Source: Proteus vulgaris (GTDB lineage: Bacteria; Pseudomonadota; Gammaproteobacteria; Enterobacterales; Enterobacteriaceae). Taken from it: a DNA stretch of 64,000 bases. Each line of letters starts with the position of its first letter. Within the stretch, counting starts at the first letter, position 1. Shown here one piece after another: positions 5,387 to 33,090 of this stretch. The stretch lies in contig NZ_CP137920.1 in NCBI RefSeq assembly GCF_033708015.1, forward strand, positions 372,001-436,000, written 5' to 3'. The translations under genes and the position numbers were made by a program. A model generated the notes under the pieces. It saw only the letters and a program-made list of their open reading frames with translations, did no database searches and had not been told where the DNA came from.

Positions 5387-6236
5387 TTTCATAACCTGCT
5401 TTTTCAAACCATTTTGCTAATACCCACCATGTGGTCGCGCCAGAAAGGGGGGAATCTATAGTATCAAAGCTAAGTATTGTGCTTTCTGTGTCTCTAAGGC
5501 TTGCTAATGTTACCCAATCAAGTCCTGAAATAACTGAGCCATAAGCATCATTGAAATGTCCATTAGGATTACGGCAACCTTTACTTGGTATTATTCTTAA
5601 GTTGCCAATCTTAGTTGTACCATATTGCCATAGTTCTTTTGCAGCTTGTTCATAGATATCAGGTCTATCTCTTAGCAGACAATAAAAAAATGCAGCAGAT
5701 CCACACAAGCTTGTTCCTCCTTGATTGGGATAATCAAAATGCTCCATTCGCTGAGGTAATTCAAACTTAAATAGGCTCTTTTCAAACGGATCTTTAGCAC
5801 TTCCTTGGGGTATTCTTTTGCAATAAATTGTCTTTCAGGCACAGTAAGTTGCAATTTAATGGTGTTATCACCTTCATTAGCTGGCTTTGTTTGCCCACTT
5901 GATTCGAAATAACAAGCTTGGTCAGACTGCTTTCTGTACGAGTGCTAGATTTTATTGATGGTTCGGTTACATAACAATCTTGAATAGAATTAATGAGTTT
6001 TGCTTTGCAAGGGCAGGCGCTAAAGCTGTCTAAGGTTCCTGCGATACGCGGTTATTTCCCAAAACATAACTAATACCACCCAGTATTTGGTAAGTTCCAG
6101 AGTGTTTACCACAGGTAACAAGATCGCCTTCGCGTGCTGCGGAGGAGCCATAAAACTTAAAAGTATCATCACCTGTTATTATTTGACCACCACAGGTTGT
6201 TTTATTACCTACTCGTAAAAAATATCCATTAGCCAT
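5387..6236 (-). pseudogene. Decayed PAAR-domain type VI secretion effector, cut by an insertion sequence
   Basis: Reading from 6236, the first 68 residues are a PAAR domain (GYFLRVGNKTTCGGQIITGD, then YVLGNNRVSQ), the sharp tip of the T6SS spike. A frameshift near 6040 leads to GTLDSFSACPCKAKLINS, the typical PAAR end. Two more shifts connect GQTKPANEGDNTIKLQL, VPERQFIAKEYPKEV and AKDPFEKSLFKFELPQRMEH. The C-terminal domain has NQGGTSLCGSAAFFY, reminiscent of a catalytic-Cys motif, then GLDWVTLASLRD. At about 5387 it runs into the IS end after AGYEKVF. It is non-functional. What the toxin domain did is not known to me; a cysteine-hydrolase fold is a guess. Confidence 0.8.
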
Positions 6237-6445
6237 ATAAATTCCCTTTTGACTTAAGTGAAATTACATTGTTGGCTAGATAAAGATAATTAACAAGTTA
6301 TTTTTAAGTATCTATTTGATTTTTAATTTTTTTATGTAGGCTGATATTTTCGAATAACATTATGGGAGGTAAAAATGATCAACAGGAAACGGTCTGATTG
6401 ACTATTTTTTGGACAATACTCTAATCTTATTCACCGCATTCTTAT

Positions 6446-27790: not shown

Positions 27791-28578
27791 TGTTACTTAT
27801 CACCACATTAGCGGTGGGAGCGGCTATTGGTTTAATTATAAGTACGACAGGAGTAGGCGGCGGTGTTATTGTTTTACCTGTATTGACCTATTTCTTTGGT
27901 ATGAATGCGTTAATGGCAGTGGCTACTGCCAATTTATTATCGATGTTGATGAAAGTCACTTCCTCTTATATGCATTTTCGCCTTGGAAACATTCCTTTTA
28001 AAAGGGCGATGATTGTATTAGGAATAATGCTACCAAGTACTTTTTTAGCCAGTGTTTTGGTTAACTATTTAGGTTCGTTAGCGCAGTATCAGCAGCAAGT
28101 CGAATGGGGCATTAATGCGCTTGTTGTCGGCGCTATTGTTTTTTCTTTGTTTCTCTTTGTACAGAGAATGTTTTTCTCATTACCTCCCGTTGTGATTGAA
28201 AATACAGCGTTAGCGCCTTTAAATATAAAAGCACTATTACTTCCTGCGATTGCAGCAGGTGTTGTTTTAGGGGCGACGGGGGTGGGCGGTGGTGTCGTGG
28301 TATTACCGTTATTGCTACGTTATGCGAACCTTTCTATTAAGCAAGCCATTGGTACTTCTATATTTACCACAACATTGTTATCAGGATCTTCAGCACTGGC
28401 CTATATGCAAGATGGACATACAGACATTCATTTAGCACTGTTGTTATTCTTAGGCTCGCTCATCTCTATTCCGCTATCTAAGTGGCTGTTGACTAGAATG
28501 CCTGACAGGATGTTTCAGTATGCCACTTTGATTTTAATTATTTGTAGTGCTGTAATGATGCTGATTAAATTATTCTAG
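27790..28578 (+). CDS. TauE/SafE-family transporter coupled to murR
   Basis: A 262-residue, roughly 8-helix protein with the internal repeat of the family: STTGVGGGVIVLPVL near residue 20 and GATGVGGGVVVLPLL near 155. Such proteins are proposed to export sulfite or organic anions. The start overlaps the murR stop (TAATG), so it belongs to the mur operon. A link to MurNAc is not established. Exporting the D-lactate made by MurQ would make sense, but this is a guess. Confidence 0.75.
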   Translation: MLLITTLAVGAAIGLIISTTGVGGGVIVLPVLTYFFGMNALMAVATANLLSMLMKVTSSYMHFRLGNIPFKRAMIVLGIMLPSTFLASVLVNYLGSLAQYQQQVEWGINALVVGAIVFSLFLFVQRMFFSLPPVVIENTALAPLNIKALLLPAIAAGVVLGATGVGGGVVVLPLLLRYANLSIKQAIGTSIFTTTLLSGSSALAYMQDGHTDIHLALLLFLGSLISIPLSKWLLTRMPDRMFQYATLILIICSAVMMLIKLF

Positions 28579-28878
28579 TATTAAAATGTATCATGAATGT
28601 TAATTGTAAAAATATTATTTAAATAATAACTCAATAAAAATAAATTATATTGGCTATTTTTCAATTACCTTCTTAATTTAATCGATATCATTATTAATAT
28701 AAAAATAAGTGTCTATTTTTTATATTTTGTTAATGGAATGTATTGTTGGTGATTTATTTTTACTGATGCATGGTTTTTATTGTAAATAGATAATTGAGAT
28801 GATAGTCACATTAATGTCAATTTCTATATGTTTCACTGTAACCCTCATTTAATACCTATAAGTGAAGGTACTAGTATT
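28579..28878. other. Non-coding region before the SpeFL-like leader
   Basis: AT-rich, with no ORF. It should hold the promoter of the leader and ornithine carbamoyltransferase operon. I see no clear ArgR box or FNR site. Confidence 0.4.
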
Positions 28879-28980
28879 ATGGAAAATAATAATAGAAAAA
28901 CACCTCATATTAGACGTATTGCCCACATTATGATGTATAAACAACGTCAATGCTTCCATTTCTCCGTTTTTAACGGATAA
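28879..28980 (+). CDS. speFL: SpeFL-like ornithine-sensing leader peptide (33 aa)
   Basis: The 33-codon ORF begins MENNNRKTPHIRRIAHIM and ends QRQCFHFSVFNG. It aligns without gaps to E. coli SpeFL (MENNSRTMPHIRRTTHIM at its start). Shared positions include His10, Ile11, Arg12, Arg13, His16, Ile17, Met18, Arg23, Phe26, Phe28, Phe31 and Asn32; it ends one residue short. SpeFL captures ornithine in the ribosome, stalls at its stop codon and lets the downstream mRNA be made. GAAGG lies ten bases ahead of the ATG. Here the gene lies 137 bases before ornithine carbamoyltransferase, not speF. The HIRRxxHIM sensor part is the best conserved. Confidence 0.88.
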   Translation: MENNNRKTPHIRRIAHIMMYKQRQCFHFSVFNG

Positions 28981-29017
28981 TCACTTTTTCTATTTTTTAG
29001 AAATATAAAGCATGTTT

Positions 29018-29039
29018 CTTAATAACCTAGGTTATTGAG
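29018..29039 (+). promoter_or_regulatory. Leader hairpin between speFL-like ORF and arcB
   Basis: CTTAATAACC (29018-29027) pairs with GGTTATTGAG (29030-29039), ten pairs with a two-base turn. No proper T run follows. It may be a pause or switch structure of the leader RNA. Confidence 0.5.
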
Positions 29040-29117
29040 GATGGCTCTCTATTATTTTTAATAACAAACTATTTTTCAACTCTATTATTATCAAAATAAT
29101 TAGGAGATAGGATTATT

Positions 29118-30110
29118 ATGTCTATTAATATTAAAGGTAGAAGTTTTTTAAAATTACTCGATTTTTCATCTGCTGAAATTCAATATTTATTAAAGCTGTC
29201 TAAACATTTTAAATCATTAAAAATGGCAGGTATTCCGCACCGCTCTTTGGAAGGCAAAAATATCGTTTTATTATTTGAAAAAACCTCAACACGCACACGT
29301 TGTGCCTTTGAAGTTGCGGGTTATGATTTAGGGATGGGGGTGACTTATCTTGATCCGGGCTCATCACAAATGGGGAAAAAAGAGTCTATTGAAGATACTG
29401 CGCGCGTGTTAGGGCGTTTCTATGATGGTATTGAATATCGTGGTTTTGATCAGTCATTAGTTGAAGAATTGGCGGAGAAATCAGGAGTACCAGTATGGAA
29501 TGGTCTTACCGATAAATTTCATCCCACTCAGATGTTGGCGGATATGCTTACCGTTGAAGAAAATTTTGGTCATTTAAAAGGGCTTAAGCTGACTTTCTTT
29601 GGTGATGCCCGTAATAACGTTGCTAACTCTTTAATGGTCGTTTGTGCCAAATTAGGCCTACATTTTACGGCATGTGGTCCCGCCTCTTTAATGCCAGAAG
29701 AACAACTTGTAAAGGCGTGTCGTATCATCGCGGCTGAAAACGAAGGTTCTATCACATTAACAGAAGATATTGAGAAAGGGGCAAAGGACGCTGATGTTCT
29801 CTATACCGATATTTGGGTTTCAATGGGTGAGCCTGATAGTGTTTGGGATGAACGCATTCGTTTACTAAAAGCTTATCAAGTCAATGAATCTATGATGAAA
29901 ATGGCAAATCCTCACGCTATTTTCTTACACTGTTTACCTTCATTCCATGACCGCTTAACCACGATTGGTGAAGATATTTATCAAAAATTTGGCTTGAGTG
30001 AAATGGAAGTGGCAGACGGTGTTTTCGAGTCTCGCCAATCAAAAGTTTTCGATCAGGCTGAAAATCGTATGCACACCATTAAAGCTGTTATGTTTGCGAC
30101 TTTAAGCTAA
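29118..30110 (+). CDS. arcB: Ornithine carbamoyltransferase, probably catabolic
   Basis: A 330-residue enzyme with the carbamoyl-phosphate loop STRTR at 57-61, the HPTQ segment near 132 and HCLPSFHD near 270 (usual HCLPAFHD). It interconverts ornithine plus carbamoyl phosphate and citrulline. Its place with carbamate kinase and an amino-acid antiporter argues for the catabolic or fermentative route. No arginine deiminase (arcA) is in the window, and a SpeFL-like ornithine sensor stands upstream. The direction of flux is therefore uncertain. Confidence 0.9.
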
Positions 30111-30125
30111 AGCAAGGAGTTAACA

Positions 30126-31073
30126 ATGCCAAAGAAGGTATTTATTGCTTTAGGGGGAAATGCACTGGGCAGTACGCCACTAGAGCAGAAGCAGATAGTA
30201 CGAAAAACCGCAAAGCCTATTGTGGATCTGGTTGAGAAAGGTTATCAAGTCATTATTGGTCATGGAAATGGTCCACAAGTTGGGATGATCAATTTAGCTA
30301 TGGATTATGCATCTCAACAGAACATCGGCACGCCTTATATGCCTTTTGCTGAATGTGGTGCCATGAGCCAAGGTTATATTGGCTATCATCTACAACAAGC
30401 TATTAATGACGAGTTATGGGCGAGAAATCTGAATAAAAATCATGGTTGTGCAACCATTGTGACCCAAGTGGTTGTTGATAAAAACGATCCTGCTTTTTTA
30501 TCACCGACAAAACCGATTGGCGCTTTTTATACCCAACAGCAAGCGGAGGCTATTCAAAAAGAGCACGGTTTTCAGTTTATGGAAGATGCAGGGCGTGGAT
30601 ATCGCCGAGTGATCCCATCACCTCAACCGTTAGAAATTGTAGAATCACCGATTATTAAACAGTTAGTTGAACGTAATATTGTGGTTATTACTGTTGGTGG
30701 CGGTGGTATTCCCGTTATTCGAAAAGGGGATGTATTAGAAGGTATTGATGCCGTTATTGATAAAGACAACTCTAGCTCAAAATTAGCCGTAGAATTAAAA
30801 GCAGATATTTTATTAATATTAACAGCGGTTGATAAAGTTGCTATTAATTTTAATAAGCCAGAGCAAATGAATTTAGATAACTTAACGCTTTCTCAAGCTC
30901 AGGAATATATTTCTCAAGGGCAATTTGCTAAAGGAAGTATGTTACCTAAAGTTGAAGCTTGCCTTAATTTTCTAAAAGAGAGTGATAAAGGTGTACAAGC
31001 TGTTATTACTTCTTTAGAGAATGCATTATCTGCTTTAGAAGGAAAAACAGGTACAACAATTATTTCTGATTAA
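30126..31073 (+). CDS. arcC: Carbamate kinase
   Basis: The 315-residue kinase has ALGGNALG at the N-terminus, GHGNGPQVG, and VGGGGIPV with the following loop GIDAVIDKDNSS. It makes ATP from carbamoyl phosphate and ADP, releasing carbamate (ammonia and CO2). It lies 15 bases after arcB with AAGGAG in front, so the two are co-transcribed. Confidence 0.93.
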   Translation: MPKKVFIALGGNALGSTPLEQKQIVRKTAKPIVDLVEKGYQVIIGHGNGPQVGMINLAMDYASQQNIGTPYMPFAECGAMSQGYIGYHLQQAINDELWARNLNKNHGCATIVTQVVVDKNDPAFLSPTKPIGAFYTQQQAEAIQKEHGFQFMEDAGRGYRRVIPSPQPLEIVESPIIKQLVERNIVVITVGGGGIPVIRKGDVLEGIDAVIDKDNSSSKLAVELKADILLILTAVDKVAINFNKPEQMNLDNLTLSQAQEYISQGQFAKGSMLPKVEACLNFLKESDKGVQAVITSLENALSALEGKTGTTIISD

Positions 31074-31174: not shown

Positions 31175-32686
31175 ATGAAACTTAAAAAGTTTGCGTTTCC
31201 GACCGCATTTACTATTTTATTTGCAATTACAGTAATTGTGGTTGGCTTAACGTGGATTATTCCAGCAGGAGAATATCAACGATTAAGTTATAACTCCGCG
31301 GATCCATCATTAGTGGTTGCGAAAATAGATGGTTCTCATGACGTGTTACCTGCAACTCAAGCGACATTAAATGATTTAAATGTCTCTATTGAGATTAATA
31401 AATTTACCGATGGGACAATTAAAAAACCGATAGCGATACCCGGAACATATGAACGAGTAGCACAGCAACCTAAAGGGATAATGGATATAACCGAGAGTAT
31501 GGTGAAAGGAACGATAGAAGGGGCTGACGTTATTGTTTTTATTCTTGTTTTGGGAGGACTTATTGGTGTTGTTAATAAAACAGGTGCATTCAATGCGGGT
31601 TTAACAGCGCTAGCGAATCGAACAAAAGGTAAAGAATTTTTAGTGGTATTTGGTGTTACGATTATATTATCCATTGGCGGGACAAGCTGCGGGATTGAAG
31701 AAGAAGCCGTTGCCTTCTATCCCATATTAGTGCCTATATTCTTAATTTTGGGTTATGACGCTATTGTGTGTGTCGGTGCTATTTTCCTTGCCTCTTCAAT
31801 GGGGGCTGGGTTTTCAACGGTAAACCCTTTTTCAGTTGTTATTGCATCAAATGCTTCGGGGATCAGTTTTATTGAAGGGATTGGTTTTCGTACTATTGGG
31901 TTGGTGATTGGTACGATAGGTGTTTTGGTTTATTTATATTGGTATTGCAAGAAGATCAAAAAAGATCCAACTTTCTCTTACAACTATGAAAATGCGGAAA
32001 GTTTTAAACAGCGCTTTTTAAATGATTACGATCCTAATGAAATATTGGAATTTTCGTGGCGTCGTAAAGTGATCCTCTGCTTATTTGTTGCTGCTTTTCC
32101 TATTATGGTTTGGGGTGTTATGGACATGGGCTGGTGGTTTCCACAAATGGCCGCTCTTTTCCTTGGTATCGCAATCATTATCATTTTCCTCTCAGGATTA
32201 AAAGAAAAAACAGCCATTGACGGATTTATTCACGGGGCATCTGAATTAGTTGGTGTTTCACTAATTATTGGTTTAGCACGAGGTGTCAACCTTGTGATGG
32301 AACAAGGCAAAATTGCTGACACTATCCTTGAATTTATGTCTCATATGGTAGCAGGAATGCCACCAAGCCTATTCTTATTAGCACAACTCGTTGTCTTTAT
32401 TTGTTTAGGTTTCATTGTGCCTTCCTCTTCAGGCCTTGCTGTGTTAGCAATGCCAATTATGGCGCCATTAGCTGATGCGGTCGGTGTTCCTCGTTATATG
32501 GTGGTATCAGCATATAACTGGGGGCAATATATCATGTTGTTCTTAGCGCCTACTGGACTGGTGTTAGCGACATTACAAATGTTAGATATCGCTTATAACA
32601 AATGGCTTAAATTTATTATGCCGATGGTGATATTTATGTTTGTACTTTCGGCAACACTATTATTGGTTCAAGTGGCTTTTTTATAA
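31175..32686 (+). CDS. YfcC/ArcD-like amino-acid antiporter
   Basis: A 503-residue membrane protein with about 12 helices. It has a large loop after helix 1 (WIIPAGEYQRL) and GGTSCGIEEEAVAFYPI, which is typical of the YfcC family of basic amino-acid antiporters. With arcB and arcC upstream it likely exchanges ornithine for arginine or citrulline. Start 31175 has GAGG nine bases ahead. Its specificity cannot be read from the sequence. Confidence 0.8.
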   Translation: MKLKKFAFPTAFTILFAITVIVVGLTWIIPAGEYQRLSYNSADPSLVVAKIDGSHDVLPATQATLNDLNVSIEINKFTDGTIKKPIAIPGTYERVAQQPKGIMDITESMVKGTIEGADVIVFILVLGGLIGVVNKTGAFNAGLTALANRTKGKEFLVVFGVTIILSIGGTSCGIEEEAVAFYPILVPIFLILGYDAIVCVGAIFLASSMGAGFSTVNPFSVVIASNASGISFIEGIGFRTIGLVIGTIGVLVYLYWYCKKIKKDPTFSYNYENAESFKQRFLNDYDPNEILEFSWRRKVILCLFVAAFPIMVWGVMDMGWWFPQMAALFLGIAIIIIFLSGLKEKTAIDGFIHGASELVGVSLIIGLARGVNLVMEQGKIADTILEFMSHMVAGMPPSLFLLAQLVVFICLGFIVPSSSGLAVLAMPIMAPLADAVGVPRYMVVSAYNWGQYIMLFLAPTGLVLATLQMLDIAYNKWLKFIMPMVIFMFVLSATLLLVQVAFL

Positions 32687-32927
32687 AATTGAGTTGATGT
32701 GTTTATGTTGAAATACGAGTTTTGGTTATTCTGTAATTTAAAATTAATCTAGATTTTTATGCTGCGATCGGGGATATTTTTTGATTTTCATGAGAAGTGA
32801 TCTAGCTCTCGTTTTTAGTGGTGATAAAAAATAAACCGAAAAAAAAGGTTGTTAATTTGTAGAAGTTATGTTTTTTTAAATACAGATAACACGTAAACAC
32901 ATCATTAAATTAATTGATAGGTAACCC

Positions 32928-33026
32928 ATGATCATCACTACTCTACTACAAAGCCTACGACTAACAGCGCACATCGCGGCTGTGGTTGTCGTGCGTGTGG
33001 TGGTGGTCGTCGGCAAAGCGCCGTAA
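32928..33026 (+). CDS. ivbL: ilvBN operon leader peptide
   Basis: The 32-residue peptide has ten Val, nine of them in AAVVVVRVVVVVGKAP, and four Leu near the start (TTLLQSLRL). It closely matches E. coli IvbL. When charged Val-tRNA or Leu-tRNA is short, the ribosome stalls here and the terminator at 33052-33090 does not form. Confidence 0.93.
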   Translation: MIITTLLQSLRLTAHIAAVVVVRVVVVVGKAP

Positions 33027-33051
33027 CGGGTCCGAATCAACACAGTTTCGA

Positions 33052-33090
33052 AACCCCGCCGGCGCATTAACCGGGCGGGGTTTTTCTTTT
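33052..33090 (+). terminator. Attenuator of ilvBN
   Basis: AACCCCGCC (33052-33060) pairs with GGCGGGGTT (33074-33082), followed by TTTTTCTTTT. It stands 26 bases after the ivbL stop and 45 before ilvB. Confidence 0.9.

Follow-up and report, generated by a model that had tools for sequence, protein, structure and literature searches.

A SpeFL-family leader peptide before an arcB-arcC-antiporter operon in Proteus: probable retargeting of an ornithine-responsive arrest peptide

In Proteus vulgaris and most of the Proteus genomes examined, a leader peptide of the SpeFL family stands directly before arcB, arcC and a putative antiporter gene. We consider it probable that a SpeFL arrest peptide has been retargeted from ornithine decarboxylase to this operon, where arrest at termination induced by ornithine would relieve a Rho-type attenuation; the ornithine response, the stalling and the involvement of Rho are what we infer from known SpeFL systems. 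The Pfam PF10940 score, the coding constraint on the leader, the strict co-occurrence of leader and arcB, and the conserved elements of the leader RNA support this reading. It points to the reuse of a ribosome-based metabolite sensor in a second pathway. The preliminary description had interpreted the locus as an ornithine sensor driving arcB. The SpeFL-family leader before an ornithine carbamoyltransferase gene instead of speF and the altered peptide end both stood, the pair proves to be conserved (16 of the 20 Proteus genomes), and ornithine sensing, stalling and the driving of arcB are retained here as parts of a model.

Identity and start of the leader reading frame

The window, which is the whole 64,000-nucleotide stretch of P. 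vulgaris (host) DNA that was analysed, carries on its forward strand a leader ORF of 33 codons plus UAA (28879..28980; ATG at 28879, TAA at 28978-28980), identified by translation, alignment, substitution count and Pfam. Its product is MENNNRKTPHIRRIAHIMMYKQRQCFHFSVFNG. The feature as first delimited runs on to 29117, the last base before arcB. The peptide matches PF10940 (SpeFL) with 32.8 bits against a cut-off of 25 (E 5.9e-8), while SpeFL of E. coli K-12 itself reaches only 23.8 bits. Thus, what had been called SpeFL-like is by its sequence a member of the SpeFL family. The gap-free alignment to E. coli SpeFL that had been claimed is also right: the leader is 55% identical over 33 residues to the K-12 peptide (NC_000913), which is the chain in PDB entries 6tbv and 6tc3, and retains HIRRxxHIM, R23, F26, F28, F31 and N32. 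The same sensor core and residues are present in all 16 Proteus copies that precede arcB (arc type). In an alignment of 15 SpeFL rows (three of the arc type and 12 others, E. coli included), the leader keeps every invariant column, namely M1, E2, N3, N4, H10, I11, R12, R13, H16, I17, M18, R23, F26 and F28; F28 and N32 are not universal among more distant speF leaders. The exact motif pattern occurs once in the whole host genome and not at all in a backwards control, which together with a PF10940 score above the gathering cut-off makes a chance origin of the leader unlikely. Apart from this leader, exact-motif and profile searches detected, at their sensitivities, no SpeFL in the genome of the host.

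The start at 28879 is preceded by a Shine-Dalgarno-like GAAGG (28864..28868, forward strand), which reads GGAGG in the P. hauseri row (L112). A longer in-frame start, ATG at 28828, was rejected, as the extension is absent in the P. hauseri-like locus L112 and in L121.

A shorter end of the peptide

In every one of the 16 arc-type loci, the stop is UAA and its distance from His10 is 24 codons. Elsewhere this distance is 25 codons in 17 of 19 family-level and 20 of 29 order-level loci (two sets with 5 genomes in common), the remainder lying at 30-35 codons, and it is 26 codons in P. mirabilis. The arc-type end is therefore the shortest among the SpeFL loci examined and falls one codon before the commonest SpeFL end, in agreement with the altered effector end noticed earlier. 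Gly33 and UAA are unchanged in 16/16 genomes, and codon 33 is seen as GGA, GGG, GGC and GGT. As longer ends are tolerated, SpeFL length is not strictly fixed across the family; it is fixed among the arc-type leaders. If arrest occurs at termination, as is described for SpeFL in the available part of PMC8429421, Gly33 would occupy the P site. Stalling at the stop of the arc-type leader may, given the shorter end, be changed or lost.

Two further observations concern SpeFL ends in general. In the relatives at L185-L192, L195, L019 and L024, the end is 30-35 codons away from His10 and exceeds the usual position by five to ten codons; one may ask whether such peptides arrest during elongation. UGA serves as the SpeFL stop in one of 48 family- and order-level loci, a raw count in which 5 genomes appear twice; such scarcity might be consistent with release factor 1 being blocked, but the stop of Salmonella orf34 is given as UGA in the accessible text of PMC6386406.

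Constraint on the leader reading frame

Among the 16 arc-type Proteus genomes, 15 distinct leader ORF sequences encode just three peptides, which differ at residue 15 alone (A, T or V). The 21 distinct substitutions comprise 19 silent changes and two nonsynonymous ones, both in codon 15. Random placement gave a mean of 15.2 nonsynonymous changes, and none of 20,000 randomisations was as low as two; owing to the shared ancestry of the sequences, this result is no strict probability. Between the window and P. hauseri, the leader ORF shows 13 differences (11 silent and two in codon 15, Ala to Thr), and the 95 nt 3′ of the leader stop have no detectable match between the two. This pattern of substitution indicates that the leader reading frame is constrained.

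Distribution in Proteus and beyond

The exact SpeFL motif was found in 17 of 20 Proteus genomes, and in 16 of them, host included, the leader precedes arcB. An arcB gene of 97-100% identity is present in exactly these 16 genomes and is absent from the other four (G126, G082, G131 and G132); by arcB, the closest named relatives of the host are Proteus faecis (99%) and P. hauseri (97%). In 16/16 cases arcC lies 3′ of arcB and is followed by the start of the antiporter gene, and the distance from leader stop to arcB is 134-137 nt, being 137 nt in the host. Conservation of the ORF among relatives, proposed earlier as a check, is thus borne out, with codon 15 as the single variable position of the peptide.

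In the genomes that lack arcB, only a short interval separates the TauE-like gene from the ilvBN region: similarity to the window stops at 28563-28628 and restarts at 32554-32795, and leader, arcB and arcC are missing from the site in all four. Two antiporter fragments remain there in G131 (L168, about 6020-6340), so this genome has lost the cassette. G082, G131 and G132 have neither the leader-arcB pair nor SpeFL-speF. G126, which is P. mirabilis-like, has a canonical SpeFL with speF next; its peptide is identical to that of P. mirabilis strain H110 (L233), whose leader is followed by speF and a PotE-like gene. G126 also bears a further speFL copy, degenerate and interrupted by an in-frame stop (L157, about 6210-6320), and a speF-like start from 6633, and the single decarboxylase-domain match of this genome lies elsewhere. 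Comparison of P. hauseri with the window gives 85% identity for arcB, 81% for arcC, 85% for the antiporter and 84% for ilvB, and only 77% for the TauE-like gene. As the cassette has diverged about as much as neighbouring ilvB, it looks as if it had been inherited since the common ancestor.

In the samples examined outside Proteus, SpeFL was always found with speF. In the family-level sample, for which the exact motif was demanded, 20 of 119 genomes have it; 19 of these are not Proteus, and speF is next in 19/19 (in G028 it matches in two pieces). A profile search of the order-level sample gave matches at E up to 0.01 in 36 of 394 genomes. Thirty of them are SpeFL with the HIRR core, i.e., the host and 29 others, and speF is next in 29/29; the weak matches in the remaining six genomes, and an additional one in G170, lack HIRR and precede neither speF nor arcB. 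The two samples, each a part of a larger group, overlap by 5 genomes, so that 43 distinct non-Proteus genomes carry SpeFL, with speF next to it in 43/43. In the class-level sample, 4 of 369 genomes gave a match, and only that of the host is genuine; the three weak matches outside the order lack the motif. Nine plasmid records have a SpeFL match, two of them chromosome-sized P. mirabilis records, and the downstream genes were read in L233 alone. In G019, SpeFL-speF is preceded at a distance of about 1 kb by the terminal part of a gene for an ornithine carbamoyltransferase (L009, 7-402; 59% identity with ArcB).

The survey of SpeFL homologues and the genes after them, which had been suggested at the outset, gives this division: arcB in 16/16 arc-type Proteus genomes, and speF in 43/43 non-Proteus genomes and G126. 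Having speF as the next gene is a feature of the context, not of the peptide. In these comparisons, the target and the end of the host leader differ from those of all other SpeFL examples examined. In a literature search that covered few subscription papers, no description of SpeFL preceding arcB was found; such loci may be included in the main SpeFL paper (Nat Microbiol 2020).

The arcB-arcC-antiporter operon

That the leader stands before arcB, arcC and an antiporter gene, as originally claimed, is confirmed by three profile matches on the forward strand. ArcB (ornithine carbamoyltransferase, 29118..30110) scores 416 bits with TIGR00658 (cut-off 281) and 267 with the putrescine model, below its cut-off of 500. 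ArcC (carbamate kinase, 30126..31073) scores 378 bits with TIGR00746 (cut-off 358). The third product (31175..32686) is a YfcC/DcuC-family transporter, probably an antiporter, with 484 bits for PF03606 (cut-off 23); against PRK11588 (basic amino acid antiporter YfcC) it reaches 267 bits, below the cut-off of 500.

Regarding origin, ArcB is closest to enzymes of Bacillota and Actinomycetota. Among 80 relatives kept of at least 581 confirmed, two are from Proteus and 78 are 70-76% identical; the titles of these 78 name Bacillota, Actinomycetota or a spirochaete or are unspecific, and no proteobacterium appears in any of them. When 27 chosen rows were placed in a tree, Proteus ArcB joined the Bacillota/Actinomycetota group and was split at 100/100 from the second Proteus enzyme and from the ArcB of family f9; the tree is midpoint-rooted, carries a long-branch warning and leaves out the host's own distant PyrB-like row. 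ArcB, as placed by this tree, groups with Bacillota and Actinomycetota and not with the gammaproteobacterial enzymes compared. The best relatives of the antiporter in the order-level sample are found in family f9 (65-69%) and in f25 and f12 (65-66%), and the operon may be a mosaic. ArcB matches occur in 554 plasmid records, and the best among the matches listed is about 60% identical.

A search for arginine deiminase (TIGR01078) gave 0 matches in the host genome, with a control that found the enzyme in 3 of 14 known genomes, one of them over the cut-off; on this ground the operon is not an arginine deiminase pathway. A second ornithine carbamoyltransferase is encoded in the host genome. With modest confidence we favour the direction from citrulline to ornithine with a gain of ATP over the reverse, and this is the weakest step of the explanation. 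The "ornithine-using pathway" of the preliminary description may accordingly use ornithine or produce it, since no arginine deiminase was found and the operon might work in either direction between citrulline and ornithine. The host decarboxylase is 68.6% identical to SpeF and 62.0% to SpeC, the next gene lies on the other strand, and the enzyme could be either SpeC or SpeF. P. vulgaris has an ODC-negative phenotype, on which a literature search found no paper.

Further downstream is a Val-rich, IvbL-like leader of the ilvB operon (32928-33026; 31.8 bits with PF08049, cut-off 25, and below the NCBIfam cut-off). A strong hairpin with a U-run follows 3′ of it at about 33050-33084, before the acetolactate synthase genes. 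This region looks like a classical attenuator adjoining the SpeFL leader.

Upstream region and leader RNA

A tentative CRP-like site, TGAGA-N6-TCACA (28795..28810, forward strand), resembles what we take to be the CRP consensus. It was noticed after the fact within the conserved upstream block of the 16-genome alignment and shows base changes in several rows (e.g., L111 and L122). No promoter was identified in the leader region, where six promoter-like sites stand against 6.2 expected from shuffles.

The excess of C over G is greatest at 28910..28999 (forward strand), i.e., over the final part of the leader ORF and slightly past it, with C/G of 14/8 at 28910-28969 and 13/5 at 28940-28999. This C-rich, G-poor stretch is a rut-like candidate, and its place resembles that of the CU-rich Rho candidate before the orf34 stop of Salmonella, as far as described in the available part of PMC6386406. 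Farther 3′, the covarying hairpin P1 (29018..29039, forward strand) has 10 pairs, four of which are changed on both sides, and 98.1% of its cells are paired. A second predicted hairpin (29080..29106, forward strand) covers the Shine-Dalgarno sequence of arcB (AGGAG, 29102-29106); nine of its 10 pairs never vary, and hence it draws no support from covariation. The two hairpins together have four pairs and 16 cells changed on both sides, all within P1, compared with 2.0 pairs and 6.3 cells in shuffles and 0-1 pairs and 0-4 cells in slid controls. Further pair types in the leader RNA show no excess (12 vs. 12.0 in shuffles), and the sequence running from the leader stop into arcB does not fold clearly better than chance would give (z -1.41; 17 of 200 shuffles did at least as well). 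A consensus scan found no intrinsic terminator in the leader, and Rfam at gathering scores found no known RNA family there, its one tRNA hit lying elsewhere in the window.

The possibility that a stalled ribosome simply frees the arcB Shine-Dalgarno sequence finds no support in the folding model, which leaves this sequence 0.19 to 0.25 unpaired with or without a ribosome at the stop. As arrest alone does not open the site in the model, it seems likelier that the leader would act on transcription than on initiation.

Proposed mechanism and alternatives

The available part of PMC8429421 describes an ornithine-dependent termination arrest by SpeFL. In Salmonella, according to the accessible text of PMC6386406, translation of orf34 prevents Rho termination and ornithine raises speF-lacZ expression. 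By analogy, the HIRRxxHIM sensor and the ribosome tunnel would hold ornithine while the leader is translated, and the effector residues F26, F28, F31 and N32 would prevent the peptide from being released at the UAA that follows Gly33, one codon before the usual place. The stalled ribosome would then cover the C-rich stretch at the ORF end, Rho would not terminate, and arcB, arcC and the antiporter gene would be transcribed. Their products would interconvert citrulline and ornithine with carbamate kinase and membrane exchange, most likely from citrulline to ornithine with formation of ATP. If that direction holds, ornithine would reinforce the expression of the operon, as we propose.

Other readings give the same peptide a different role. 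Arg12 and Arg13 could report the supply of arginyl-tRNA, as proposed for Salmonella orf34, so that arcB would be raised when arginine is short. Codons 12-13 are AGA CGT in 16/16 arc-type leaders, such a mode has been reported for Salmonella speF in the available part of PMC6386406, and an ornithine carbamoyltransferase can also serve arginine synthesis. Arginine-codon attenuation is nevertheless unlikely here, given the second ornithine carbamoyltransferase of the genome, a carbamate kinase and a transporter that point to catabolism, and a constraint that covers the whole peptide and not just its arginine codons. We likewise regard as improbable an arrest peptide whose ligand has changed to citrulline, arginine or another amino acid, or whose stalling has become independent of a ligand. 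Y20, K21, Q22, Q24, H27, S29, V30 and G33, along with the shorter end, are fixed in 16/16 arc-type leaders and unseen in the 12 other alignment rows, as if the peptide had been re-tuned; yet the sensor motif and the alignment-invariant residues are unchanged, and Q22, S29 and V30 recur in distant speF leaders and so need not mean a new ligand.

That the leader is a functionless passenger which arrived with the DNA is very hard to credit. Leader and operon share one pattern of presence and absence, as would also be expected of a passenger, but nearly all changes in the ORF are silent, while in P. hauseri the 95 nt 3′ of its stop no longer give a detectable match. Retargeting of an ornithine-responsive SpeFL thus remains the preferred explanation. 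A broader and more tentative proposal, somewhat less than an even chance in our estimate, is that SpeFL is a portable module: it would have been captured by an operon with a Bacillota-type arcB, its stop shifted by a single codon, and the pair retained during much of the evolution of the genus, with ornithine, possibly the operon's own product, switching on a citrulline/ornithine pathway by positive feedback.

Implications

Most of the known ligand-sensing arrest peptides have been described with a single target operon. A SpeFL with a changed target and a changed end, nearly unchanged in most Proteus genomes examined, amounts to a natural experiment. It can help to tell the parts of the peptide that read ornithine from those that stop the ribosome, and to show how much displacement of the stop codon is tolerated. 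A further prediction is that Proteus has a citrulline/ornithine operon under the control of ornithine.

Comparison with known systems

TnaC, the leader of tnaAB, allows escape from Rho. It resembles SpeFL in that termination is arrested by a free amino acid, as far as described in the available part of PMC8429421, and differs from the host leader in its unrelated sequence and its ligand, tryptophan. The arginine deiminase pathway (arcABCD) shares ornithine carbamoyltransferase and carbamate kinase with the host operon, which differs from it in that no TIGR01078 match was found in the genome. The gene order arcB-arcC-antiporter recurs at nine loci of family f9, which we would guess to be Pasteurellaceae; ArcB is about 55% and ArcC 39-42% identical to the host proteins there, and no SpeFL was found at any of the nine, one chance match of 11.2 bits aside.

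Within the genus, the SpeFL of P. mirabilis (L233, H110; identical in G126) shares Ile14 and Cys25 with the arc type. Unlike the latter, it has 35 codons, stands before speF and a PotE-like gene, and bears H22, D27, L30 and A33. The nearest described relatives are SpeFL of E. coli and Orf34 of Salmonella (PF10940, formerly DUF2618; structures 6tbv and 6tc3), the leaders of speF-potE, which have in common with the host leader the sensor motif and R23, F26, F28, F31 and N32, a short leader ORF before an ornithine enzyme and a C-rich patch at the ORF end. The host leader is set apart from them by its target, arcB-arcC-antiporter, and by being one codon shorter with a Gly33-UAA end, and the distance from the stop to the next gene is 257 nt to speF in E. 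coli compared with 134-137 nt to arcB in the arc type.
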